Translations under genes and position numbers: made by a program
Assembly (NCBI GenBank): GCA_945925985.1
Contig: CAMELV010000015.1
Location: forward strand, 1-64,000
Origin: Comamonas sp. lk
GTDB lineage: Bacteria > Pseudomonadota > Gammaproteobacteria > Burkholderiales > Burkholderiaceae_C
DNA length: 64,000 nucleotides
Reading direction: 5' to 3'
The notes under the pieces: generated by a model
The model's database searches: none
Seen by the model: the letters and a program-made list of their open reading frames with translations, nothing else
Told to the model about the DNA's origin: nothing
Shown: in pieces, positions 36,014 to 54,646 of the stretch
How the letters are laid out: every line of letters starts with the position of its first letter
Numbering within the stretch: the stretch's first letter is position 1

Positions 36014-38101
<2,088 letters not shown>

Positions 38102-38169
38102 TCATGAGTGCCCCTGCTCGTGCAAGCAGACTTCTATACTTGCATTACCAAGCAAAGAGTGACCTGCCC

Positions 38170-38766
38170 ATGACCCAACCTAGCCCAATGCAACTCGGCA
38201 ACGCCTCCGTCGAAGACCGTGCTAAGGCCATGGAGCAGGCGCTGGAGGCTCGCGGCTGGGAGCCAGCAAACTTTGTGGGAGAGCAGGGACAGCTGATTGA
38301 CGAGCAGTGGTTGCCGGCCAACGGGGCAAGGGTTGTCGCCAGAGCCTGGACCGATTCGCCATTTCGACAACGCTTGCTCAGCAATGGCCGCGCGGCCGTG
38401 GCTGAACTCGGGCTGGGCATGCCGCCGCACCACCGGCATTTGGTGGCGCTGGAAAACACCCCCACCGTGCATAACGTGATCTGCTGCACCCTGTGCTCGT
38501 GCACCGCTTTTACCATCATCGGCATCCCACCCGACTGGTACAAAGACCTTGAATACCGGGCCCGCGTGGTGCGGCAGTCCCGCACGGTGCTCAAAGAGAT
38601 GGGCCTGACACTGCCGCCCGAGACTGAAATCCGGGTGTGGGACACCACAGCCGATACCCGTTACATCGTGTTGCCCGAACAGCCGCCCAACACGCGGGGC
38701 TGGCCGCTGGAACGGTTGGCCGAATTGGTCACCCGTGACGGCATGATCGGCGTGGCGCGCCTCTAA
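38170..38766 (+). CDS. Nitrile hydratase alpha subunit
   Basis: Metal site VICCTLCSCTAFTIIGIPPDWYK; EYRARVVRQSR; DTTADTRYIVLPEQP. Confidence 0.93.
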   Translation: MTQPSPMQLGNASVEDRAKAMEQALEARGWEPANFVGEQGQLIDEQWLPANGARVVARAWTDSPFRQRLLSNGRAAVAELGLGMPPHHRHLVALENTPTVHNVICCTLCSCTAFTIIGIPPDWYKDLEYRARVVRQSRTVLKEMGLTLPPETEIRVWDTTADTRYIVLPEQPPNTRGWPLERLAELVTRDGMIGVARL

Positions 38767-38779
38767 AAGGAGTCAGACC

Positions 38780-39394
38780 ATGGACGGCATGCATGATTTA
38801 GGTGGCAAACAGGGTTTTGGACCGGTTCGTTATGCGCCAGAGGCGGCGGCTTTTCATGCGCCTTGGGAGAGGCGAGTCAACGCGCTGTACTCACTGGCGG
38901 TCAGGCGGGGGCTATTCAATATGGACGAGTACCGGCATGCGATCGAACGCATGGAGCCGCGCCATTACCTCAACGCCAGCTATTACGAGCGGACCCTGAC
39001 CAGCCTGGCTACGTTATGCGTTGAAAAATCGGTGGTGAGCCTGGCTGAGCTAGAGCAGCTCGCTCAAGGCGCATTTCCGCTGGCGCTGCCCAGTGCCGAT
39101 GGGCGCAGTAACGTGGCCGACCGTGAAGTCTTCAAACTGGGGGACTCGGTGCGGGTCAGAGCCGACTTGGTGCCCGGTCATGTGCGCATGCCGGCCTACA
39201 TCCGTGGCAAGGTCGGCGTGGTGGTGGGCGAGTCGCCAGCCTACCCGTTCCCAGACGCGCACGCTCATGGTGTGGTGGCATCTGATGAGCCGACCTACGA
39301 TGTGCGTTTTGACGCCCTGCACCTGTGGCCCGACTCAGCCGACCCGGCGTTTGTGCATGTTGGGTTGTTCCAGAGCTATCTGGAGCGGCCCTGA
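38780..39394 (+). CDS. Nitrile hydratase beta subunit
   Basis: MDGMHDLGGKQGFGPV; GDSVRVRADLVPGHVRMPAYIRGKVGVVV. Confidence 0.93.
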   Translation: MDGMHDLGGKQGFGPVRYAPEAAAFHAPWERRVNALYSLAVRRGLFNMDEYRHAIERMEPRHYLNASYYERTLTSLATLCVEKSVVSLAELEQLAQGAFPLALPSADGRSNVADREVFKLGDSVRVRADLVPGHVRMPAYIRGKVGVVVGESPAYPFPDAHAHGVVASDEPTYDVRFDALHLWPDSADPAFVHVGLFQSYLERP

Positions 39395-39419: not shown

Positions 39420-40394
39420 TCAGGCCAGGTACTTGGCGAACTGGGCAATGTCGATGTTGCCGCCTGAAATGAGCACGCCCACGCGCTTGCCGCGCACGTC
39501 CACCACGCCTTGCATGGCTGCGGCCATGGCCAGCGCCCCCGTGGGCTCGATCACCATCTTCATGCGCGCTGCTGCAAAGCGCATCGCGTCAACCAGCTGC
39601 GCATCGCTGACAGTCACGATGTCATCCACCAGGGTTTGAATCACTGGAAAGGTGAGCTGCCCGACCTGCTGCGTCTGGGCCCCGTCGGCAATCGTTCGGG
39701 GCGTGTCAATTTTCACCATGCGACCCAGCTGTTTGCTTTGCTGCACATCGTTGCCGGCTTCGGGTTCGACCCCGATCACCCGGCAATCCGGGCTCAGCTG
39801 CTGCGCCACCACTGCGCAGCCAGAGAGCAGCCCGCCGCCACCCAGGCAGACCAGCAACAGGTCCAGTGGCCCTGTGTCTTCAAACAACTCGATGGCGGCC
39901 GTGCCCTGGCCGGCCATCACGTGGGCATGGTCATAGGGGGGTATGAGCGTCATGCCACGCTCTTGTGCCAGTTGCCGCCCGATCGCTTCGCGGTCTTGCG
40001 TGTAGCGGTCATAGGTGATCACTTCGGCGCCATAGCCGCGTGTTGCTGTCATCTTGACGGCGGGCGAGTCCAGTGGCATGACGATGGCAGCCGGAATGCC
40101 CAGCACTTGCGCCGACAGTGCCAGGCCCTGCGCGTGATTACCTGAACTGAACGCGCACACGCCGCTTTTCCGCTGTTCTGGCGTGAATTGCGCCAGGGCG
40201 TTGTAGGCGCCGCGAAACTTGAAGGCGCCCATGCGTTGGAAGTTTTCGCATTTAAAAAACAGTTGTGCCCCAGTGAGCGCGTTCGCGGTTTGGGACGTAT
40301 GCACCGGGGTGCGGTGCGCCACGCCCTGTAGTCGGGCGTGTGCCGCGGCCACATCGGCGTAGTTAATGGCCAGTTGTGTGGCGGGCGACCTCAT
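39420..40394 (-). CDS. Threonine/serine dehydratase (PLP fold type II)
   Basis: FKFRGAYNAL PLP-Lys motif; SSGNHAQGLAL; LGGGGLLSG. Confidence 0.9.
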   Translation of the reverse strand: MRSPATQLAINYADVAAAHARLQGVAHRTPVHTSQTANALTGAQLFFKCENFQRMGAFKFRGAYNALAQFTPEQRKSGVCAFSSGNHAQGLALSAQVLGIPAAIVMPLDSPAVKMTATRGYGAEVITYDRYTQDREAIGRQLAQERGMTLIPPYDHAHVMAGQGTAAIELFEDTGPLDLLLVCLGGGGLLSGCAVVAQQLSPDCRVIGVEPEAGNDVQQSKQLGRMVKIDTPRTIADGAQTQQVGQLTFPVIQTLVDDIVTVSDAQLVDAMRFAAARMKMVIEPTGALAMAAAMQGVVDVRGKRVGVLISGGNIDIAQFAKYLA

Positions 40395-43301: not shown

Positions 43302-45647
43302 ATGGACAGTAATAATGCCCGATTTGGAAGTGGCCACGCGGTGCTCCGCATCGAAGACGACAAGCTGCTCAAGGGGCAGGGGCGGTTCACTGACGACATC
43401 ACAGATGACACTGAGTACAGCGTTCACCTGCGCCTGTGTTTTGTCAGGTCGGTGTACCCGCATGCCCGTATTCTGAGCATTGACAAGAGCGCCGCTCTGG
43501 CCATGCCAGGGGTGGTGGCCGTTTTTGACGGCGCTGATCTGGTGGCTGCCGGGGTCAAACCGATTCCTGGCCCGGCCGCGTTCAAACGCGCTGGCGGTGC
43601 ACCCAGTGTCACCCCCCTGCGCCGGCCGCTGGCCTTCGAGCGGGTGCGCTACGTTGGCGAGGCTGTGGCGGTGGTGCTCGCCAGCACGCTGGAGCAGGCC
43701 CGCGACGCCGCCGAAGCGGTGATGGTCGACTACGATGAACTGCCGATGGTGGTGGACCTGCACCAAGCGTTGGCCGCCGGCGCGTCGGTGGTGTGCGACG
43801 AGGCCCCCGACAATATTTCTGCCGAAATGCGCCACGGTGACGCCGATGCGACCGCCCGGGCCTTCTCCGGTGCGGCACATGTGGTGGGCCTGTCGCTCAG
43901 CAACCAACGCCTGGCGGCGCTGACGCTGGAGCCGCGATCGGTTTTTGCACTGGTCGACCCGAGCGATGGCCGTCTGGTGCTGCGTATGAGCACCCAGATG
44001 CCCTCGGGTATCAAGACCTCGCTGTGCAAGGATGTGCTGGGCCTGTCGCGCGATCAGGTGCGCGTGACGGTGGGCGATGTGGGCGGTGGCTTTGGCATGA
44101 AAGGCGGGATCCACCCCGAGGATGCGGTGACCGCCTGGTGTGCCTGGACGCTCAAACGCCCAGTGAAATGGATTGCCGAACGCAGTGAAGAGTTTCTCAG
44201 CGGTGCCCCCGGCCGTGATATCGACACCAAGGCTGAGTTGGCCTTGGCGGCTGACGGCCGTCTTCTGGCCCTGCGCGTGCACACCCTGGCCAATGTCGGC
44301 GCTTATGCCACTGGCACCGGCGTGGCCATCCAGCTGCTAATTGGTCCCTGGGTGCAGACCAGCGTCTATGACATCCAGACCGTTGATTTTTATTTCAAGG
44401 CGGTGCTCACCAACACCGCGTCGGTGGGCGCGTACCGGGGTGCCGGTCGGCCTGAGGCGATTTACATCATGGAACGCTTGATGGACGAGGCGGCGCGCCA
44501 GACCGGCATCGACCGCATCGCGCTGCGTCGGCACAACATGATTCGCCCCGAACAGATGCCCTACAAGAACCCGATGGCGCAGGTGTATGACAGTGGCCGC
44601 TTTGAGCACGTGCTAGACCAGGGTCTGGCACTGGCCGACTGGGACGGTTTTGCCGCTCGCGAGGCCGAGTCGGTGCGGAACGGAAAATGGCGCGGCCAGG
44701 GCATTGCCACTTTTCTGGAGTGGACCGGTGGCAATGTCTTTGAAGAGCGCATGACGGTCACGGTACTGGCCGACGGTGTCATTGAAGTCTTTTCTGCTGT
44801 AAATGGCATGGGGCAGGGCATTGCAACCTCACTCGCGCAGCTGGTGGTGGACGTGTTTGATGTGCCGCTTGAGCAAGTGCGGGTGGTGTTGGGAGACACC
44901 GACCTGGGCGAGGGGTTTGGCAGCGCCGGCTCGCGCTCGATCTTTGTCGGTGGCTCGGCGGTCAAGGTGGGCGCGCAGCGCACCGTGGAGCATGTCCGCG
45001 CCATGGCCGCCAGCACGCTGGAGGCCGCGGTGCAAGACATCGACTACCTGGCCGGGCGCTTCCAGGTCAAGGGCACAGACTTGAGCGTTGGCCTATTTGA
45101 GTTGGCGGCTAAGCAGCCCGGCGGCCAAATTTTCTTCGAATCCACCAGCGCGGTCAGCGGGCCGTCCTGGCCCAATGGCTGCCACGTGTGCGAGATCGAG
45201 CTCACGCCCGAGACCGGCGAGGTCGCGGTGGTGGCCTATGCCTCGGTCAACGATGTAGGCAAGGTGGTTAACCCCGCCATCGTGATCGGGCAGCTCGACG
45301 GCGGCGCCATGCAGGGTATCGGGCAGGCGCTGATTGAGCAGGTGGTCTACGACCCGCAAAGCGGCCAGTTGCTGACCGGCAGCCTGATGGACTATGCCGC
45401 GCCGCGCGCCGATATGACACCACCGTTTCGTACCGCGATGGACCAGTCAACCCCTTGCCTGAACAACCCGCTGGGTGTCAAGGGTGTTGGCGAGCTCGGC
45501 ACGATTGGCGCCACGCCTTGTGTGGTCAATGCCGTGGCGGATGCCCTGGCCCGCCATGGCCATGGCCACCTTACAGGGCAACTGCAGATGCCGCTGACAT
45601 CGGCGCGTCTGTGGACTTTGCTCCAAACCCCTGGCACTGGGCATTAG
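43302..45647 (+). CDS. Molybdopterin-binding xanthine-dehydrogenase/CoxL form-II-like large subunit
   Basis: GDVGGGFGMKGG; active-site loop AYRGAGRPE; C-terminal GVGELGTIGATP; no adjacent FAD or 2Fe-2S subunits. Confidence 0.9.
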   Translation: MDSNNARFGSGHAVLRIEDDKLLKGQGRFTDDITDDTEYSVHLRLCFVRSVYPHARILSIDKSAALAMPGVVAVFDGADLVAAGVKPIPGPAAFKRAGGAPSVTPLRRPLAFERVRYVGEAVAVVLASTLEQARDAAEAVMVDYDELPMVVDLHQALAAGASVVCDEAPDNISAEMRHGDADATARAFSGAAHVVGLSLSNQRLAALTLEPRSVFALVDPSDGRLVLRMSTQMPSGIKTSLCKDVLGLSRDQVRVTVGDVGGGFGMKGGIHPEDAVTAWCAWTLKRPVKWIAERSEEFLSGAPGRDIDTKAELALAADGRLLALRVHTLANVGAYATGTGVAIQLLIGPWVQTSVYDIQTVDFYFKAVLTNTASVGAYRGAGRPEAIYIMERLMDEAARQTGIDRIALRRHNMIRPEQMPYKNPMAQVYDSGRFEHVLDQGLALADWDGFAAREAESVRNGKWRGQGIATFLEWTGGNVFEERMTVTVLADGVIEVFSAVNGMGQGIATSLAQLVVDVFDVPLEQVRVVLGDTDLGEGFGSAGSRSIFVGGSAVKVGAQRTVEHVRAMAASTLEAAVQDIDYLAGRFQVKGTDLSVGLFELAAKQPGGQIFFESTSAVSGPSWPNGCHVCEIELTPETGEVAVVAYASVNDVGKVVNPAIVIGQLDGGAMQGIGQALIEQVVYDPQSGQLLTGSLMDYAAPRADMTPPFRTAMDQSTPCLNNPLGVKGVGELGTIGATPCVVNAVADALARHGHGHLTGQLQMPLTSARLWTLLQTPGTGH

Positions 45648-46107: not shown

Positions 46108-46908
46108 GTGCCCCGCATCAAGCCGACTCGCTTCGTTTTTCAAGCCGTGCAACTGGTTCGACCCTGTGAAGTGGTGGCCTACCGCATCACCGAGGCCATC
46201 CGGGCGGGCGATGTTAAGGTAGGCGAACGGCTGCCGTCGGAGCAGAGTCTGTCCGAGCAGTTGGGCGTGAGTCGGCCGACGCTGCGCGAAGCCACCAAGT
46301 TGCTGGCCCAAGCGGGCGTTGTCCAAGTATTGCCTGGTTCGTCAGGTGGCATTTTTGTCATCAGTGAAGCGGTGCCTCCCGAGCTGTGCGGTTACCCCCT
46401 GCCCAACCTGCCGTTGGATGACATCGACAGTGTGCTGGAGGCGCGGCGCTTGTTTGAGCCCCGCGTTGCGCGACTGGCGTCGATCTACGCGACGCCGACT
46501 GATTTTGAACGTATGCGCGACGCGGTCAGGCTCAGCGAAGCAACGGTGGTTCAATTTAAAAAGAGGAAGATCACCCAAGCCGGTGCGCAAGTAATGACCA
46601 TGGCCAGCACGCGCTTCAATATTGCAGTTGCAAGAGCCACACAAAACACCATGATCGTTCAGATGATGGAGGTGATGTTGCGGCGCCTTGAGCTGGTACG
46701 TACCCTGGCCGTGCGCGAACTCAGTGACATTGCCCTATCGACCCGGACCCTCCACGACAGTTTGCTGGCCATCGAAAGCGGGGACCCGGATCAAATTGAC
46801 GCAGCCACGCTGGCCCGCATCGGCTTGCTGGAGACCGCTTGGGAGCAGGCCGTGGGCAAACCACTGCGCCGCCGGGCGATCCTGCCGAGCGCCTTGAAAA
46901 GAGCTTGA
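46108..46908 (+). CDS. GntR/FadR-family (FCD) transcriptional regulator
   Basis: VGERLPSEQSLSEQLGVSRPTLREATKLLAQAGVVQVLPGSSGGIFV. Confidence 0.92.
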   Translation: MPRIKPTRFVFQAVQLVRPCEVVAYRITEAIRAGDVKVGERLPSEQSLSEQLGVSRPTLREATKLLAQAGVVQVLPGSSGGIFVISEAVPPELCGYPLPNLPLDDIDSVLEARRLFEPRVARLASIYATPTDFERMRDAVRLSEATVVQFKKRKITQAGAQVMTMASTRFNIAVARATQNTMIVQMMEVMLRRLELVRTLAVRELSDIALSTRTLHDSLLAIESGDPDQIDAATLARIGLLETAWEQAVGKPLRRRAILPSALKRA

Positions 46909-46941: not shown

Positions 46942-46961
46942 TTGGTATATAAAAATACCAA
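46942..46961. promoter_or_regulatory. Perfect 7+7 inverted repeat, candidate FadR-family operator
   Basis: TTGGTAT-ATAAAA-ATACCAA, 34 nt after the regulator gene and ahead of the downstream cluster. Confidence 0.7.
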
Positions 46962-47024
46962 ATTCAGACAATTAACACATCGAAATCATGGTCGGTTCAA
47001 GCGGCCCAAACTGGAAGACTCGAC

Positions 47025-47379
47025 CTTGACCTTGCCTGCCGATGAGTTTGAGCTGTATGACCTGCGCGTTGAGGTGGTCGTCCATGATGACCGCAATATC
47101 CAGTGCGGGGCAAAGGCGGGCGACTATTTTGAGGCGCGTGGTGAGATGTTGCACTTCCCGCCAGGGCAGGGCTTTTCCCTGTACTCACTGGCAGCGCTGC
47201 TGCCGCTGCTACCCGCTAAGCAGCGTGTTACGCAGCCGGCAGACTGGATGAGCACCGATGCTGAAGTGGCCTGTCCGGACCCGCATTGCCCCACCCGCTT
47301 TCGCATCACCCGGCTGGGCAAGCGCCTGTTCAAACACAGTGACACCACGGCGGTGCCGTTGCCAGCTGGTCTGTCATGA
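47025..47379 (+). CDS. TIGR04076-family protein (start uncertain)
   Basis: ELYDLRVEVVVHDDRNIQCGAKAGDYFEARGEMLHFPPGQGFSLYSLAALLPLLPAKQR; stop overlaps next ATG. Confidence 0.7.
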
Positions 47380-48425
47380 TGACTGCCGCCGCTGTTGAAA
47401 CCGTCACGCTCGCACCCGGCTACCGGATCCCCCGCATCATCCGTGGTGGCTGGCAGCTCGCTGGTGACCATGGCCCGGTTGAGCGCCACCGCGCCATTGC
47501 TGACATGGCCGCGTTTCTCGCGGCCGGGTTCAACACGGTGGATGGTGCTGACATCTACACCGGCGTCGAGGACATGTATGGTGAGTTCAACGCCCACCAG
47601 CGTGCGGCTGGCCTAGCCACCATGCAGGTTCACACCAAGTGCGTCCCTGATTACGCCGACCTTGACCAGCTCCACGCTGCCGATTTGCGGCGTACCATCA
47701 CACGCTCGCTGCAGCGCCTGCGCACCGACCGGCTCGACTTGGTGCAGTTCCATTGGTGGGACTACAACCGGGGCAACTACCTGGAAGCCGCGGCAGCCTT
47801 GCAGCAAATGCAACAGGAGGGCCTGATTGCCCGAATTGGCGGCACCAACTTTGATACCGCCCACGCCCGGGCGCTGATCGAGGCGGGTGTCTCCCTGACC
47901 AGCATGCAAACCCAGTTCTCACTGCTGGACCGGCGTCCCCGCACCGGCTTGGCCGACCTTGCGGCGCAGCACGGCATGCACCTGCTGTGCTACGGCACCC
48001 TGGCCGGCGGATTTCTGACTGAGCACTGGTTGGGACAGTCCGAGCCAGTCCAGACGCTCACCAACCGCTCCTTGGTGAAGTACCAATTGATCATCGACGA
48101 GTTCGGCGGTTGGAGCGCCTTTCAGGCACTGCTGCGGGCCTTGAAAACCATCGCCGACCGGCATGGGGTTGCGCTCTCAAGCGTGGCCGTTCGCTGGGTG
48201 CTGGACCAGCCCGGTGTGGCAGCTGCCATTGTCGGCGCCCGTTATGCAGACAAGCTCGCCAGTACGCTGGAGGTGTTTGCCTTCCAACTGAGCCAAGCGG
48301 ACCATGCTCTGATCGCGCCGCTGCTGGCCGCAGCGCCCGGCCCTGCGGGCGAACCCTACAGACTGGAGCGCGACAAGACGGGCCGACACGGCCGCATCAT
48401 GAAGTACGAACTGAACAAAACCTGA
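47376..48425 (+). CDS. Aldo/keto reductase
   Basis: Tetrad residues in DGADIYTG, VHTKCVPD, VQFHWWDY. Confidence 0.9.
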   Translation: MMTAAAVETVTLAPGYRIPRIIRGGWQLAGDHGPVERHRAIADMAAFLAAGFNTVDGADIYTGVEDMYGEFNAHQRAAGLATMQVHTKCVPDYADLDQLHAADLRRTITRSLQRLRTDRLDLVQFHWWDYNRGNYLEAAAALQQMQQEGLIARIGGTNFDTAHARALIEAGVSLTSMQTQFSLLDRRPRTGLADLAAQHGMHLLCYGTLAGGFLTEHWLGQSEPVQTLTNRSLVKYQLIIDEFGGWSAFQALLRALKTIADRHGVALSSVAVRWVLDQPGVAAAIVGARYADKLASTLEVFAFQLSQADHALIAPLLAAAPGPAGEPYRLERDKTGRHGRIMKYELNKT

Positions 48426-48452: not shown

Positions 48453-49733
48453 ATGCGACACCTGCTTTCCACCACCGCCCTAGCTGCGATTGCCACGCTG
48501 GGCACGTCGTCCTCGTTTGCCCAAACGCCGTCTTGCACCCACACGGTGGGCATGGTGGTATCGCTCACCGGGGCCGCTGGTCGTTTCGGTCAGGCCGCGA
48601 GCAAATCGGTCGAGCTGGCCTTCAGTGAGTTGAACAAGGCGGCCGGAGCGCAAGGCATTGCCGGCTGCAAGCTCGCTTTTGACCTGCGCGACGCGCAAAG
48701 CCAGGGCTCCGTGGCAGTCGACCAGGCCCGGCAACTGGTGGATCTGAAAAAAGTGCCGGCCATCATTGGTGGCATCATCAGCTCGGTCTCGATCCCGATG
48801 GTGACGTCAGTCACCGGCCCGGCTGGCGTGGTGCAGATTTCACCAGCCTCTTCGTCACCCACCCTGACCAAACTGGCCGTGGAGGGCAAGACCAATGGCT
48901 GGTTCTTCCGCACCATCACCAGCGACGCCTTGCAGGGCACGGCCGCGGCCAAGTACGCTCTGGACCAGGGCATGAAAACCCTCACCGTGATCCATGTGAA
49001 CAATGATTTCGGCGTCAACATGCTGGCGGAATTCCGCCGGGCCTACGAGGCACTGGGCGGCAAGATCATCGACGTCACGCCGTACAACCCCGAGCAGTCC
49101 TCCTACAACGCCGAGGTGACCAAGGCGCTCAAGGGCGATCCGGCGGCGCTGTATTTCGTCGGCTATCCCGGCGACGGCACCACCATCATCCGCACCTGGG
49201 TGCAGCAGGGCGGGCCACAGCGCTTCCTGTTCAACGACGGCATGAATTCGGCCGATTTCATCAAGGGCGTTGGTGCCCAGTACCTGAAGAATGCGATTGG
49301 CACATCTTCCGGTACAACCAAGACCGAATCCACCGCCTACTTTGACAAGGCCTACCCGGCCATGAGCGGTGGTTTTGACGGTGGCGCACCGGCTGCCGTA
49401 CAGGGCTTTGATGCCGCCGCCATCCTTGGGCTGGCGGTCGCCCAGGCCGGCAAGTTTGACGCCGCCTCGATTCGCGATGGCATCCGCAAGGTCACGGCCT
49501 CGGGCGGCGAGGTGATCCACGCGGGACCGCAGGGCTTTGCCCGCGCGCTGGAACTGATCAAGCAAAAGAAACCCATCCGCTATGTGGGGGTGATTGGCCC
49601 AGTCCAGTTTGACAAAAATGGTGACATTGCCGGTCCGTTCCGCACCTGGAAGATTGCCGATGGCGAGGTGGTCACTGCGGGTCAGATATCCACCGAAGAC
49701 GTGCAAGCCATCCAGGCCAAGATGGTCAAATGA
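48453..49733 (+). CDS. Branched-chain amino acid-type ABC transporter substrate-binding protein
   Basis: Signal peptide; HTVGMVVSLTGAAGRFGQ; ALYFVGYPGDGTTIIR. Confidence 0.92.
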   Translation: MRHLLSTTALAAIATLGTSSSFAQTPSCTHTVGMVVSLTGAAGRFGQAASKSVELAFSELNKAAGAQGIAGCKLAFDLRDAQSQGSVAVDQARQLVDLKKVPAIIGGIISSVSIPMVTSVTGPAGVVQISPASSSPTLTKLAVEGKTNGWFFRTITSDALQGTAAAKYALDQGMKTLTVIHVNNDFGVNMLAEFRRAYEALGGKIIDVTPYNPEQSSYNAEVTKALKGDPAALYFVGYPGDGTTIIRTWVQQGGPQRFLFNDGMNSADFIKGVGAQYLKNAIGTSSGTTKTESTAYFDKAYPAMSGGFDGGAPAAVQGFDAAAILGLAVAQAGKFDAASIRDGIRKVTASGGEVIHAGPQGFARALELIKQKKPIRYVGVIGPVQFDKNGDIAGPFRTWKIADGEVVTAGQISTEDVQAIQAKMVK

Positions 49734-51229
49734 ATCAGGGCATCGCTGCGTTGAAACCGCTTGGTCGGCCACAACGCACGGCGCTGGCCCCGGGCCTGGA
49801 GATCTCGCGCCTAGTCACCGGCTTGTGGCAGGTGGCAGACATGGAGCGCGGTGGCACCCTGATCGATCCAATGAAGGGTGCTGCCGATCTGGCGGCCTAT
49901 GCCGCACAAGGCTTTGACACCTTTGACATGGCCGATCACTACGGCTCGGCCGAGGTCATCGCCGGCACCCTGCTGGCGTCCAAGGCACAGCCCCAGGTAC
50001 GAGCCTTCACCAAGTGGTGCCCGCCACCGGGGCCGATGAGTGCGGCCGTGGTCCGCGAGGGCGTGCAGCGCTCGCTGGACCGCTTGCGGGTCAACTGCAT
50101 CGACCTGTTGCAGTTTCATTGGTGGACGTTTGAGCATCCTGGCTACATTGACGCGATGCAGGAGCTGGCCAAACTGCGCCAGCAAGGCTTGATTGCGCAC
50201 CTTGGGCTGGCGAATTTTGATACGGCGCACCTGCGGGTGCTGCTCAATGAAGGTGTTCCGGTGGCCAGCAACCAGGTCTGCATGTCGCTGCTGGACCGCC
50301 GCGGCACTGAGGACATGACGGCGCTGTGCCTGCAATCTGGCGTTAAGCTGCTGACCTATGGTGTGCTCGGTGGCGGTTTTTTGAGTGAGCGCTGGGCCGG
50401 CGCCGCTGCGCCGGCCGAAGTGCACGACTGGAGCAAGATGAAATACCAGCGCTTCATCCAGGCTGTGGGCGGTTGGGACGCGCTGCAAACCGTGCTGAAG
50501 GCTGCTCAGACCATTGCACGCAAGCACCAGGTGTCAGTTTCCAATGTAGCCACCCGCTGGGTGCTGGAGCAAGCAGCTGTAGCTGCGGTGATTGTGGGTG
50601 CCCGGCTGGGTGAGTCCGAGCACCGGGCCGACAACCTTCGGCCGTTCGAGTTTCAGCTCGATGCCGACGACCATGCCGTGCTCGATCAGGCCTTTGTCAT
50701 GACCCGTCGCCTCAGCGGTGACTGCGGTGACGAATACCGCCAACCGCCGTTCCTGACCGCCTCGGGCGACCTCAGCCACCACCTTGATACGGTGGCGCCG
50801 CTGTGGCCGCGTCAGCCGGTGCCGGGCTACAACCAGCGCTGGACAATTGACAGCGGCAGCGCCTGGGAGCCGATTGCCGGCTACTCGCGGGCGGTGCGTC
50901 TGGGTGATCGCATCCTGGTCTCGGGCACCACCGCCACCCATGGCCAGGGCCAATTGATCGGCCGCGGTGACGCTGCCGTGCAGGCCACCTACATCCTCGA
51001 CAAGATTGCGGCCAGCATCAAGGCGCTGGGTGGCAAACTGCAGGACGTGGTGCGCACCCGGGTCTACCTGCAAAACGCGGCCGACTGCGAAGCGGTCAGC
51101 CGGGTGCACGGCAAGTACTTTGGTGCCATCCGCCCGGCCAACACCCTGCTGGAGGTCTCGGCGTTGATCGGAGAAGGCTACCTGGTCGAGATTGAGGCCG
51201 AGGCTGTGGCCGCCGCGGGCGCCGCCTGA
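49730..51229 (+). CDS. Fusion protein: aldo/keto reductase + C-terminal Rid (YjgF/YER057c/UK114) domain
   Basis: AKR motifs DMADHYGSAE, AFTKWCPP, LQFHWWTF; C-terminal GDRILVSGTTATHGQG...GGKLQDVVRTRVYLQN...RPANTLLEVSALIGEGYLVEIEAEAV in one continuous frame. Confidence 0.9.
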   Translation: MNQGIAALKPLGRPQRTALAPGLEISRLVTGLWQVADMERGGTLIDPMKGAADLAAYAAQGFDTFDMADHYGSAEVIAGTLLASKAQPQVRAFTKWCPPPGPMSAAVVREGVQRSLDRLRVNCIDLLQFHWWTFEHPGYIDAMQELAKLRQQGLIAHLGLANFDTAHLRVLLNEGVPVASNQVCMSLLDRRGTEDMTALCLQSGVKLLTYGVLGGGFLSERWAGAAAPAEVHDWSKMKYQRFIQAVGGWDALQTVLKAAQTIARKHQVSVSNVATRWVLEQAAVAAVIVGARLGESEHRADNLRPFEFQLDADDHAVLDQAFVMTRRLSGDCGDEYRQPPFLTASGDLSHHLDTVAPLWPRQPVPGYNQRWTIDSGSAWEPIAGYSRAVRLGDRILVSGTTATHGQGQLIGRGDAAVQATYILDKIAASIKALGGKLQDVVRTRVYLQNAADCEAVSRVHGKYFGAIRPANTLLEVSALIGEGYLVEIEAEAVAAAGAA

Positions 51230-51235
51230 TCGGCC

Positions 51236-52039
51236 ATGGCTGAACCGAGGCCGGCAAACACAGACGGGCCGTCAGAGGATGGGCTGCTGGTGGTGGACGC
51301 CCTGTCCAAAAATTTCGGCGGCCACCAGGCGGTCAACCAGGTCTCATTTGCCTTGAAGGCGGGCGTTATTGGCGGTTTGATCGGCCCCAATGGGGCGGGC
51401 AAGACCACGCTCTTTAATTGTCTGACCGGCTTCATGCCGGCCTCGTCCGGCCAGGTGCTGCTGGATGGCGTGTCCATTTCCGGACGGCCCGCCAACGCTG
51501 TGTTTGCCGCCGGATTGGCCAGAACCTTCCAGATCCCGCGCCCGTTCCCCGAGATGAGCGTGTTGGAGAACGTGATGGTGGCGCCGCGCGGCCAGATCGG
51601 CGAGCGGTTCTGGACCAACTGGCTGCGCCCGGCCGTGGTGGCCCGTCAAGAGCGCCAGACGTTGGCTGCTGCGCGTCATTGGCTGGATTTCGTGGGTCTT
51701 TCCGGCCTGGTGCATGAGCCGGCTCGGATACTCTCGGGCGGGCAGCGCAAGCTGCTGGAGCTGGCGCGTGTGATGGTGGCCGAACCCAAAATCGTGCTGC
51801 TGGATGAACCCGGTGCCGGCGTGAACCCGGCGCTGCTGGACCAGATCGTCAACAAGGTGCGGGCCCTCAACGCAAAGGGCACCACTTTCCTCATCATCGA
51901 GCACAACATGGACCTCGTGGCCACGCTGTGTCACCCGGTGATGGTGATGGCTGAAGGCCGTTTGCTGATGTCTGGGTCGGCGCAGACGGTGCTCAGCGAT
52001 GCGCGGGTGGTGGAAGCCTACCTGGGCAGCCCGGCATGA
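51236..52039 (+). CDS. Branched-chain amino acid-type ABC transporter ATPase (LivG-like)
   Basis: GPNGAGKTTLFNCLTGF; LSGGQRKLLELARVM. Confidence 0.94.
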   Translation: MAEPRPANTDGPSEDGLLVVDALSKNFGGHQAVNQVSFALKAGVIGGLIGPNGAGKTTLFNCLTGFMPASSGQVLLDGVSISGRPANAVFAAGLARTFQIPRPFPEMSVLENVMVAPRGQIGERFWTNWLRPAVVARQERQTLAAARHWLDFVGLSGLVHEPARILSGGQRKLLELARVMVAEPKIVLLDEPGAGVNPALLDQIVNKVRALNAKGTTFLIIEHNMDLVATLCHPVMVMAEGRLLMSGSAQTVLSDARVVEAYLGSPA

Positions 52040-52785
52040 GCAGCCCCCCGGTCCTGGTCATTGAATCGCTGGAGGCTGGCTACGAGCCCAGCCTCCCGAT
52101 TGTGCGAAACGCCTGCCTGACGGTCCAACCTGGTGAGATCTTCGCCATCCTCGGCCCCAACGGTGCGGGCAAATCGTCGCTGGTGAAAGCCGTGGCCGGG
52201 CTGGTGCCTGTCAGCAGCGGCCGCGTGCTGCTCAATGGCCGCGACATCACCCGCACCCCGGCTCACCGCATGGTGTTCGAGGGCCTGGCCTTCGTGCCGC
52301 AAACCGAGAACGTGTTTATCAACCTCAGTGTGGCCGAGAACCTGGAACTTGCGGCCGCCATCGTCAAGGCCCCGCGCCACGACAGCCTGGCGCCGGTTTA
52401 CGCCATGTTTCCCGACCTGCTGCGCCAGCGCAAGTTGCCAGCGGGTCAGCTGTCGGGCGGGCAACGCCAGATGCTGGCCGTGGCACGCGCCTTGATTGCG
52501 CGGCCCGGTCTGCTGATTCTGGATGAGCCCTCGGCTGGCTTGAGCCCGCTGCTGGTCGGCCAGGTGTTTGGCAAACTGCGCGAGGTGCGCGATGCCGGCA
52601 TCACTGTCTTGCTGGTGGAGCAGAACGTCAAGGCTGCGCTGGGCTTGGCCGACCGCGCGGCCGTGCTGGTGGAGGGCAAAGAGCGTATTGTTGGCAGCAG
52701 CGCCGAGCTGCTGGGCGATGCGCGTATCGCCGCCTTGTATTTGGGCCGCCATGCCGGCACGCCGGCGCCTGGGAGGACTGGCTGA
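52036..52785 (+). CDS. Branched-chain amino acid-type ABC transporter ATPase (LivF-like)
   Basis: GPNGAGKSSLVKAVAG; LSGGQRQMLAVARALI. Confidence 0.94.
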   Translation: MSSPPVLVIESLEAGYEPSLPIVRNACLTVQPGEIFAILGPNGAGKSSLVKAVAGLVPVSSGRVLLNGRDITRTPAHRMVFEGLAFVPQTENVFINLSVAENLELAAAIVKAPRHDSLAPVYAMFPDLLRQRKLPAGQLSGGQRQMLAVARALIARPGLLILDEPSAGLSPLLVGQVFGKLREVRDAGITVLLVEQNVKAALGLADRAAVLVEGKERIVGSSAELLGDARIAALYLGRHAGTPAPGRTG

Positions 52786-53702
52786 TGTTGCAGATTTTGG
52801 CTGACGGCCTGATCATCGGCTCGGTGGTGGCGCTGGGCGCGATTGGCCTGAGCATGACCCTGTCGATCGTGCGTTTTTCCAATTTCAGCCACGGCGAGCT
52901 GCTGGGTTGGGGTGCTTATCTGGCTCTGGTGGCCTCCACCGCCCTGACCGCCACCAGCCAGGCGCTGGCAGCACCGATCGCACCCTTCTCCTTTGGGTGG
53001 GGCTTGTTGGCCAGCCTGCTGCTGGCCTGTCTCCTGACTGCGTTGCTGGCCTTGGGGCTGGACACGCTGTTATTCAAGCGCCTGCGCAAGGCGGGCTCCA
53101 TCACCTTGGTGATTGCCAGTTTCGGCGCAGCGCTGGCGCTGCGAAATTTGCTGCTGTTCTGGCAGGGTGGTATACCGCGCTACTACTCGGATAACCTGCA
53201 GATCGCCGTCACCTTTGTCCCGCGCAGCGTCTGGGGCGGGCTGCGGGTCACGCCGGATCAGATCTTTGTGTTGGCACTGACGCTGGCTACCGTGACCGGG
53301 CTGCACCTGTTCTTGCGCCACAGCACACTGGGCCGCTCGATGCGCGCCACAGCCCTCAACCCAGGGCTGGCGCGGGTCACTGGCATCGACCCGGAACGGG
53401 TGTTGCGCGCCACCTGGCTTATCGGCGGGGTGCTGGCGGCCGTGGCGGGCGTATTTGCCGGTTTGACGGTTCAGCTGCGGCCCAACATGGGTGTGGAGCT
53501 GCTGCTGCCCCTGTTCGCGGCCGTCATTCTGGGTGGGGTGGGCTCGATTTGGGGCGCTGTGCTGGGGGGCTTGATCGTGGGGCTGGCCGAAAGCGCCTCT
53601 GTCACCTTGGTCGGGGCCGAATACCGCTCAGCCGCCGCCTTTGCGGTACTGATCGCGATTTTGATGGTGCGGCCCAGGGGCCTGTTCGGGGAGCAGCACT
53701 GA
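52785..53702 (+). CDS. Branched-chain amino acid-type ABC permease (LivH-like)
   Basis: LADGLIIGSVVALGAIGLSMTLSIVRFSNFSHGELLGWGAY. Confidence 0.93.
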   Translation: MLQILADGLIIGSVVALGAIGLSMTLSIVRFSNFSHGELLGWGAYLALVASTALTATSQALAAPIAPFSFGWGLLASLLLACLLTALLALGLDTLLFKRLRKAGSITLVIASFGAALALRNLLLFWQGGIPRYYSDNLQIAVTFVPRSVWGGLRVTPDQIFVLALTLATVTGLHLFLRHSTLGRSMRATALNPGLARVTGIDPERVLRATWLIGGVLAAVAGVFAGLTVQLRPNMGVELLLPLFAAVILGGVGSIWGAVLGGLIVGLAESASVTLVGAEYRSAAAFAVLIAILMVRPRGLFGEQH

Positions 53703-54646
53703 TGGTGGATTTGACCGGCGCCTTGTCCTATGCCAGTTTCTTTCTGGTGTTTGCGACCGCCTACGCCATCATCAGCCTCGGGCTCAACCTGCAATGGGGC
53801 TTCACCGGCCTGTTCAATGTCGGGGTGGCCGGTTTCGTCGCCATCGGCGCTTACACCTCGGCCCTGCTCACCACCCCGGCGGCCAGCGACCGGTTGGCCG
53901 GCCTGGGCCTGCCGGTGGCGGTGGGCATGCTGGCCGCCATGGCGGTGACAGGCCTGGTTGGCCTGTTGGTGGGCGCTTTAGCCCTGCGGCTGCGGCAGGA
54001 CTACCTGGCCATCACCACCTTTGGAATCGCCGTCACCATCCAACTGATCGCCAACAACGCCACGCGACTGACCGGCGGGCCCTTCGGCGTGCAGTTCATT
54101 CCCAAGCCGATGCAGGCCTGGTTCGGTACCGGTCTGCCCTGGACGCTGGCCTACCTGGTCCTGTCGCTGTCGCTGCTGCTGTTGGCCTACCTGGCCATCG
54201 AGAAGCTGGTGAACAGCCCCTGGGGCCGGGTGCTGCGCGCCATCCGTGAGGATGAAGACGCCGCAAGCGCCCTGGGCAAGCGGTCGTTCGCTTTCCGGCT
54301 ACAAAGTTTTGTCATTGGCAGCATGCTGATGGGTCTGGGTGGTGCCCTTTATGCGCACTTTGTAGGCTTCATTGCACCAGATGATTTTTTACCGATCCTG
54401 ACCTTCCAGCTCTGGGCCATGTTGATCGTCGGTGGTTCGGGCAACAATCGCGGTGCCATTTTGGGCGCCTATGTGGTTTGGGGTTTCTGGACTGCTGCGG
54501 GTGGGCTGATGCGCGGCTGGATTCCACAGGCTGAACAAGCCCGGGCGGCCGCCTTGCAAGTGGTGCTCATCGGCTGCCTGATCGCGCTGATGCTGGTCTT
54601 GCGTCCGCGCGGCATGCTGGGTGATACCAAGGTCGTCGCCCGGTGA
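53702..54646 (+). CDS. Branched-chain amino acid-type ABC permease (LivM-like)
   Basis: LGLNLQWGFTGLFNVGVAGFVAIGAYTSALL; RAIREDEDAASALGK; start set at MVDLTGAL. Confidence 0.92.
   Translation: MVDLTGALSYASFFLVFATAYAIISLGLNLQWGFTGLFNVGVAGFVAIGAYTSALLTTPAASDRLAGLGLPVAVGMLAAMAVTGLVGLLVGALALRLRQDYLAITTFGIAVTIQLIANNATRLTGGPFGVQFIPKPMQAWFGTGLPWTLAYLVLSLSLLLLAYLAIEKLVNSPWGRVLRAIREDEDAASALGKRSFAFRLQSFVIGSMLMGLGGALYAHFVGFIAPDDFLPILTFQLWAMLIVGGSGNNRGAILGAYVVWGFWTAAGGLMRGWIPQAEQARAAALQVVLIGCLIALMLVLRPRGMLGDTKVVAR

Follow-up and report, generated by a model that had tools for sequence, protein, structure and literature searches.

An aldo-keto reductase–Rid fusion with an invariant asparagine at the RidA Arg105 position in a LIV-type transporter operon of Comamonas sp. 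lk

A fusion gene within a transporter operon

We analysed a stretch of 64,000 nucleotides from Comamonas sp. lk (the window), in which a gene encoding an aldo-keto reductase (AKR) fused to a Rid domain lies in a cluster of the order GntR/FCD - TIGR04076 - AKR1 - SBP - AKR-Rid - LivG - LivF - LivH - LivM (Table 1). The genes between 46942 and 54646 are tightly packed, with 4-base overlaps at the TIGR04076/AKR1, SBP/AKR-Rid and LivG/LivF boundaries.

Table 1. Features of the AKR-Rid gene and its operon, in positions of the window.
Feature	Position	Strand	Basis
GntR/FCD-family regulator, at the start of the cluster	46108..46908	+	Pfam
TIGR04076 family protein, TTG start uncertain	46942..47379	+	NCBIfam match
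AKR1, second AKR, lacking a Rid domain; 43% identity with the fused AKR	47376..48425	+	Pfam; 4-base overlap with the TIGR04076 gene
LIV-type ABC substrate-binding protein (SBP)	48453..49733	+	Pfam, PDB similarity; 4-base ATGA overlap with the AKR-Rid start
AKR-Rid fusion protein, 499 aa	49730..51229	+	Open frame, Pfam, full-length homologues
AKR domain PF00248, residues 28-320	49811..50689	+	Pfam Aldo_ket_red E=1.3e-57; Foldseek matches to Tas, AKR11/12-type AKRs
Junction motif SGDCGDEYRQPPFLTASGDLSHHL, residues 329-352	50714..50785	+	19/24 columns invariant, most conserved stretch of AKR-Rid
Rid domain PF01042, residues 377-493	50858..51208	+	Pfam Ribonuc_L-PSP E=8.1e-24; AF2 domain model
Asn471 codon AAC, RidA Arg105 position	51140..51142	+	Alignment
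LivG-like ATPase	51236..52039	+	Profile matches
LivF-like ATPase	52036..52785	+	Position, overlap with LivG, homologues
LivH-like permease	52785..53702	+	Profile matches
LivM-like permease, ATG at 53702 preferred	53702..54646	+	Profile matches

The AKR-Rid frame contains no internal stop and Pfam finds both domains in it, which bears out the first-pass annotation in its description of an uninterrupted 499-aa frame with AKR motifs and a full Rid domain. The N-terminal half belongs to the AKR superfamily by its PF00248 TIM-barrel domain, recognised by Pfam and Foldseek, and by the tetrad D66/Y71/K95/H130, which sits in the motifs DMADHY, AFTK and QFHWW and is invariant among the aligned fusions. 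A TIM barrel with the full tetrad is shared with AKR11, AKR12 and Tas, whereas an identity of only ~24%, the C-terminal Rid domain and a distinctive junction motif set AKR-Rid apart from them. The C-terminal half is a member of the Rid (YjgF/YER057c/UK114) superfamily by its PF01042 domain (Pfam) and by its fold, as seen when its model was compared with 3i7t and with RutC and RidA structures. The AKR and Rid domains are each already known, and their fusion is a new variant; no paper describing it was found among 5.39 million open-access papers.

Because full-length homologues exist in independent genomes, a frameshift or chimera is excluded as the source of the fusion, which is genuine and no sequencing artefact. 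Full-length fusions with 54-96% identity were found in ~100 Alpha- and Betaproteobacterial loci, both on GTDB contigs (60-96% identity; 80 loci retained out of 141 confirmed matches) and on plasmids (54-66% identity; 17 records), where the label 'aldo/keto reductase' conceals the Rid half. Among 399 sampled Pseudomonadota genomes seven, Comamonas sp. lk included, encode the full-length protein, as does one of 41 genomes of the host genus, and the gene is therefore patchy and accessory. When AKR1 served as query in two order-level searches, open frames of 485 aa or more enclosed 56 of 57 AKR-Rid-type matches, and the remaining one lay at a contig edge; these frames run from stop to stop and give an indirect indication for matches outside the alignment.

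The operon context is the informative part of the locus and was absent from the first-pass annotation. The set from GntR/FCD to LivM recurs in Burkholderiales, Rhizobiales and Rhodobacterales, shuffled into divergent blocks. In 85 AKR-Rid loci, many of which end at contig edges, we counted the SBP in 74, AKR1 in 72, TIGR04076 in 70 and LivG in 77, and a small DUF4440 or S6PP_C-like gene often accompanies the operon. PDB similarity of the SBP returned generic LIV-type binding proteins as the sole matches and named no ligand. No informative literature on TIGR04076 or on DUF3830, a protein family encoded in related operons described below, was found among the same open-access papers.

Several other genes lie upstream in the window. 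A xanthine/aldehyde dehydrogenase-type molybdopterin subunit (43302-45647, +), below all NCBIfam equivalog cut-offs, was considered as an operon member and rejected, as this XdhA-like gene is kept only in the close relatives L008, L009 and L030. Outside the operon are also the nitrile hydratase alpha and beta subunits (38104-39394, +; PF02979, PF21006/PF02211), an unrelated Old-yellow-enzyme/FAD oxidoreductase protein with Oxidored_FMN and Pyr_redox_2 domains (36014-38089, -) and, ~9 kb from AKR-Rid, a PALP-family PLP enzyme resembling threonine/serine dehydratase (39420-40394, -), a classic source of 2-aminoacrylate.

Asn471 and the origin of the Rid half

In an alignment with E. coli K-12 proteins, the column that holds the Arg in RidA, RutC and YoaB holds Asn471 in AKR-Rid and Trp in YjgH. 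This confirms the replacement of Arg by Asn proposed at first pass, as well as the retention of the downstream Glu (RidA Glu120 is Glu487). The Asn is not private to Comamonas sp. lk: it is fixed in 86 of 86 aligned fusions, in which P469 and A470 are also invariant, and was present likewise in every further fusion inspected. The Rid half has the fold of RidA and RutC and equivalents of their Tyr17 and Glu120, but it carries an invariant Asn instead of the catalytic Arg105 that marks RidA and the Rid1-3 proteins, and it falls into a separate clade.

In a 47-sequence Rid tree, which has some long branches and an arbitrary root, the fused Rids group together as a single clade (support 100/97), which is nested among Arg-less stand-alone Rids (clade support 99/99), apart from RidA and RutC. 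The stand-alone clade includes M. tuberculosis Rv2704 and has mostly Thr, and in no sampled member Arg, at the site; Rv2704 was previously noted to lack Arg105, suggesting a different role (PMC5038272). Those closest to the Rid half, at 39-51% identity, have Thr, Asp, Cys or Leu there and never Arg. Rv2704-type Rids are also closest to the Rid half in sequence (phmmer E=9.6e-21) and fold: the Rid domain alone was modelled well by AF2, and its top PDB match by Foldseek was 3i7t, the structure of Rv2704 (43% identity, rmsd 2.0 Å). Both groups share the GYSRAV and VEIEA motifs and the missing Arg. Unlike AKR-Rid, the Rv2704-type proteins stand alone, are ~130 aa long and have mostly Thr at the site, and those sampled have no AKR in the fetched flanks; none of the 12 regions fetched showed a possible pre-fusion state with a stand-alone sister Rid next to an AKR. 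The Rid half belongs to this Rv2704-like clade, which probably corresponds to the annotated group Rid6, although we treat that name as a lead only. Since the fused Rids nest within the Arg-less clade, the Arg was probably absent before the fusion, and its loss would then not be a consequence of the fusion event. Judged from the sequences compared, what sets the fusion apart is that the Asn is fixed.

Arg105 is needed for RidA activity, which an Arg-to-Ala change nearly abolishes, and the function of Rid4-Rid7, the groups without the catalytic Arg, has been called mysterious (PMC4433059). Rid4-7 proteins assayed so far showed no imine deaminase activity (PMC4433059, PMC9714295). The host genome encodes four further Rid proteins, three of which bear the Arg, and ordinary RidA duty is therefore probably covered. 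On these grounds the earlier suggestion that the Rid half is no 2-aminoacrylate hydrolase is reasonable; the Asn itself is no peculiar loss, being fixed family-wide within an Arg-less clade. We consider it very doubtful that the Rid half is a plain RidA-type imine/enamine deaminase that guards against reactive intermediates, with Asn471 or Arg387 substituting for Arg105. Such a function would fit the retention of Glu487 and Tyr/Phe385, an Arg387 that all aligned fusions keep and that is frequent elsewhere in the Arg-less clade, and the dehydratase-like PLP enzyme in the window. The latter, however, lies outside the operon, the same genome encodes canonical Rids with the Arg, and the effect of the Arg-to-Ala change and the inactivity of the assayed Arg-less Rids argue against it (PMC4433059, PMC9714295).

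Constraint on both halves and on the junction

Nei-Gojobori (NG86) comparison with six relatives put dN/dS between 0.09 and 0.17 in the AKR half and between 0.02 and 0.19 in the Rid half; the linker values are based on few codons. Both domains are under purifying selection. Within the Rid half, W379, E380, R387, T400-T403, H460, N471 and E487 stay near-invariant, and the domain is therefore not degenerating; together with the dN/dS values, this rules out a decaying Rid half. The most conserved stretch of the protein is the junction between the halves, with the consensus xGDCGDEYRxPPFLTASGDLSHHL over columns 329-352. In a 46-sequence set, 79% of these columns are invariant, compared with 26% in the AKR and 24% in the Rid domain. 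A fusion whose junction is its best-conserved part is unusual, and the segment may represent the C-terminal part of the AKR, closing over the active site or docking the Rid half. The full-length AF2 model is confident (pLDDT 87.7, pTM 0.89), with low confidence at residues 384-386, beside the RidA Tyr17 position; like the model of the Rid domain, it is a monomer.

These features bear on the possibility that the Rid half is a non-catalytic module which trimerises the fusion, provides the AKR with a binding pocket or lid, or both. This is close to the earlier view that the Rid half binds or channels a substrate for the AKR, and we regard it as rather unlikely, though a serious competitor. The Arg essential in RidA is gone and Rid proteins are typically trimers (PMC4433059), and the conserved junction, along with the pTM of the monomer model, would suggest a defined domain arrangement. 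On the other hand, pocket-type residues are invariant, including Glu487 and the Asn471 loop, and unfused Rids occur in like LIV/AKR1 operons (L170 with Asn and L163 with Ser at the site), which a mere oligomerisation tag leaves unexplained.

Sister operons and a candidate role

We then compared sister loci, defined by the presence of AKR1 and the absence of AKR-Rid. Among those whose operons share AKR1, TIGR04076, SBP and LivGFHM, nine (L095, L149, L154-L160) encode a DAO-family FAD oxidase together with DUF3830; the oxidase gene lies just 3' of livM in seven of the nine and on the SBP side in L149 and L160. At L175, DUF3830 and a class-IV aminotransferase follow livM, and at L150 an aspartate-dehydrogenase-like gene follows the SBP. 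None of these enzyme types was identified near AKR1 at L161, L162, L164, L165, L171-L174 and L176. DUF3830 was found in 0 of 85 AKR-Rid loci versus 8 of 21 AKR-Rid-negative loci of the genome survey (Fisher p=7e-7, a value that is overstated because relatedness is uncorrected and the two locus sets were sampled differently), and the AKR-Rid loci held only two DAO instances, at 29% identity. Because DUF3830 accompanies DAO and never AKR-Rid, the swap between the two is not one for one. Outside the LIV operon, at L177, L179 and L180, AKR-Rid adjoins GcvPA/GcvPB and a polar amino-acid ABC transporter. At L181 the surroundings are non-amine, with a sugar-epimerase-like protein beside a MocR-type regulator.

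Based on these neighbourhoods, we tentatively favour, at somewhat less than an even chance, a role of AKR-Rid in processing an imported nitrogen compound, its two domains combining AKR redox chemistry with imine/enamine handling by the Arg-less Rid on the same substrate or product. The LIV-type transporter of this patchily distributed, presumably catabolic operon would import the nitrogen-containing compound. The AKR half, predicted to be a catalytically competent NAD(P)(H) oxidoreductase, would carry out redox on a C=O or C=N intermediate, and the Rid half would handle an imine or enamine of the same substrate or product, either by hydrolysis or by keeping it in place for the AKR. With an invariant Asn replacing the Arg that clamps the carboxylate, its substrate would be something other than 2-aminoacrylate or simple 2-imino acids. 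Acting jointly, the AKR and Rid halves might match the FAD amine oxidase of the sister operons in taking an amine-level carbon to the carbonyl. The amine-processing neighbours support this role, and the recurring operon and the completeness and constraint of both domains are also in its favour; invariant pocket-type residues in such a neighbourhood suit imine/enamine handling at least as well as the binding or channelling proposed earlier.

Precedents for parts of this scheme exist. For a Rid6 protein encoded in a nicotine cluster, the predicted task is to dispose of the imine arising in an amine-oxidising step (PMC7688666), and DadY partners an FAD dehydrogenase by like logic, but has the Arg (PMC9714295). 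In the opium-poppy REPI/STORR fusion, the AKR domain reduces the iminium 1,2-dehydroreticuline, whose imine-type bond is formed by the P450 partner (PMC10813097); as a plant enzyme joined to a P450, it differs from AKR-Rid and serves as an analogy only. AmnE was considered as an active Arg-less precedent and rejected, as its conserved pocket list contains Arg117. Against the proposed role stand the inactivity of all Arg-less Rids assayed, the usual action of AKRs on C=O, the non-amine L181, the AKR1 loci at which none of the amine-processing enzymes was identified and the generic SBP matches, and the DAO, aminotransferase and aspartate-dehydrogenase operons may serve differing substrates.

It is also conceivable that the operon serves a nitrogen-free sugar, aldehyde or xenobiotic and that its amine-type neighbours are there by coincidence. 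AKRs mostly reduce carbonyls, the AKR half resembles AKR11/AKR12, Tas and DON-detoxifying AKRs, and some loci lie near sugar or tartrate genes. We nevertheless judge this quite unlikely, given that several types of amine- or imine-handling enzyme are found repeatedly at the equivalent operon position or next to the fusion and that the transporters are of amino-acid classes.

In a more specific form of the proposed role, which we consider improbable but worth stating, a single polypeptide would act as an NAD(P)-dependent oxidative deaminase that needs no flavin: the AKR would interconvert an amine or alcohol with the imine or carbonyl, while the Rid half would hydrolyse the imine via its Asn-based pocket, replacing the FAD amine oxidase. 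If true, an Arg-less Rid domain would thereby gain a defined role for the first time. More generally, the conserved fusion and its amine-type sister operons suggest a role that can be tested for a type of Rid domain lacking a known function. The link between such a domain, a predicted competent oxidoreductase, an importer and alternative amine-processing enzymes limits where that role has to be sought. The ligand of the SBP would reveal the substrate of AKR-Rid, and the two halves can be assayed apart.

We also observed that the split glycine-decarboxylase paralogues GcvPA and GcvPB lie beside AKR-Rid or AKR1 genes at L151 as well as at L177, L179 and L180, and that this occurs in bacteria and in a haloarchaeon, where TIGR04076, AKR1, GcvPB and GcvPA are found together.
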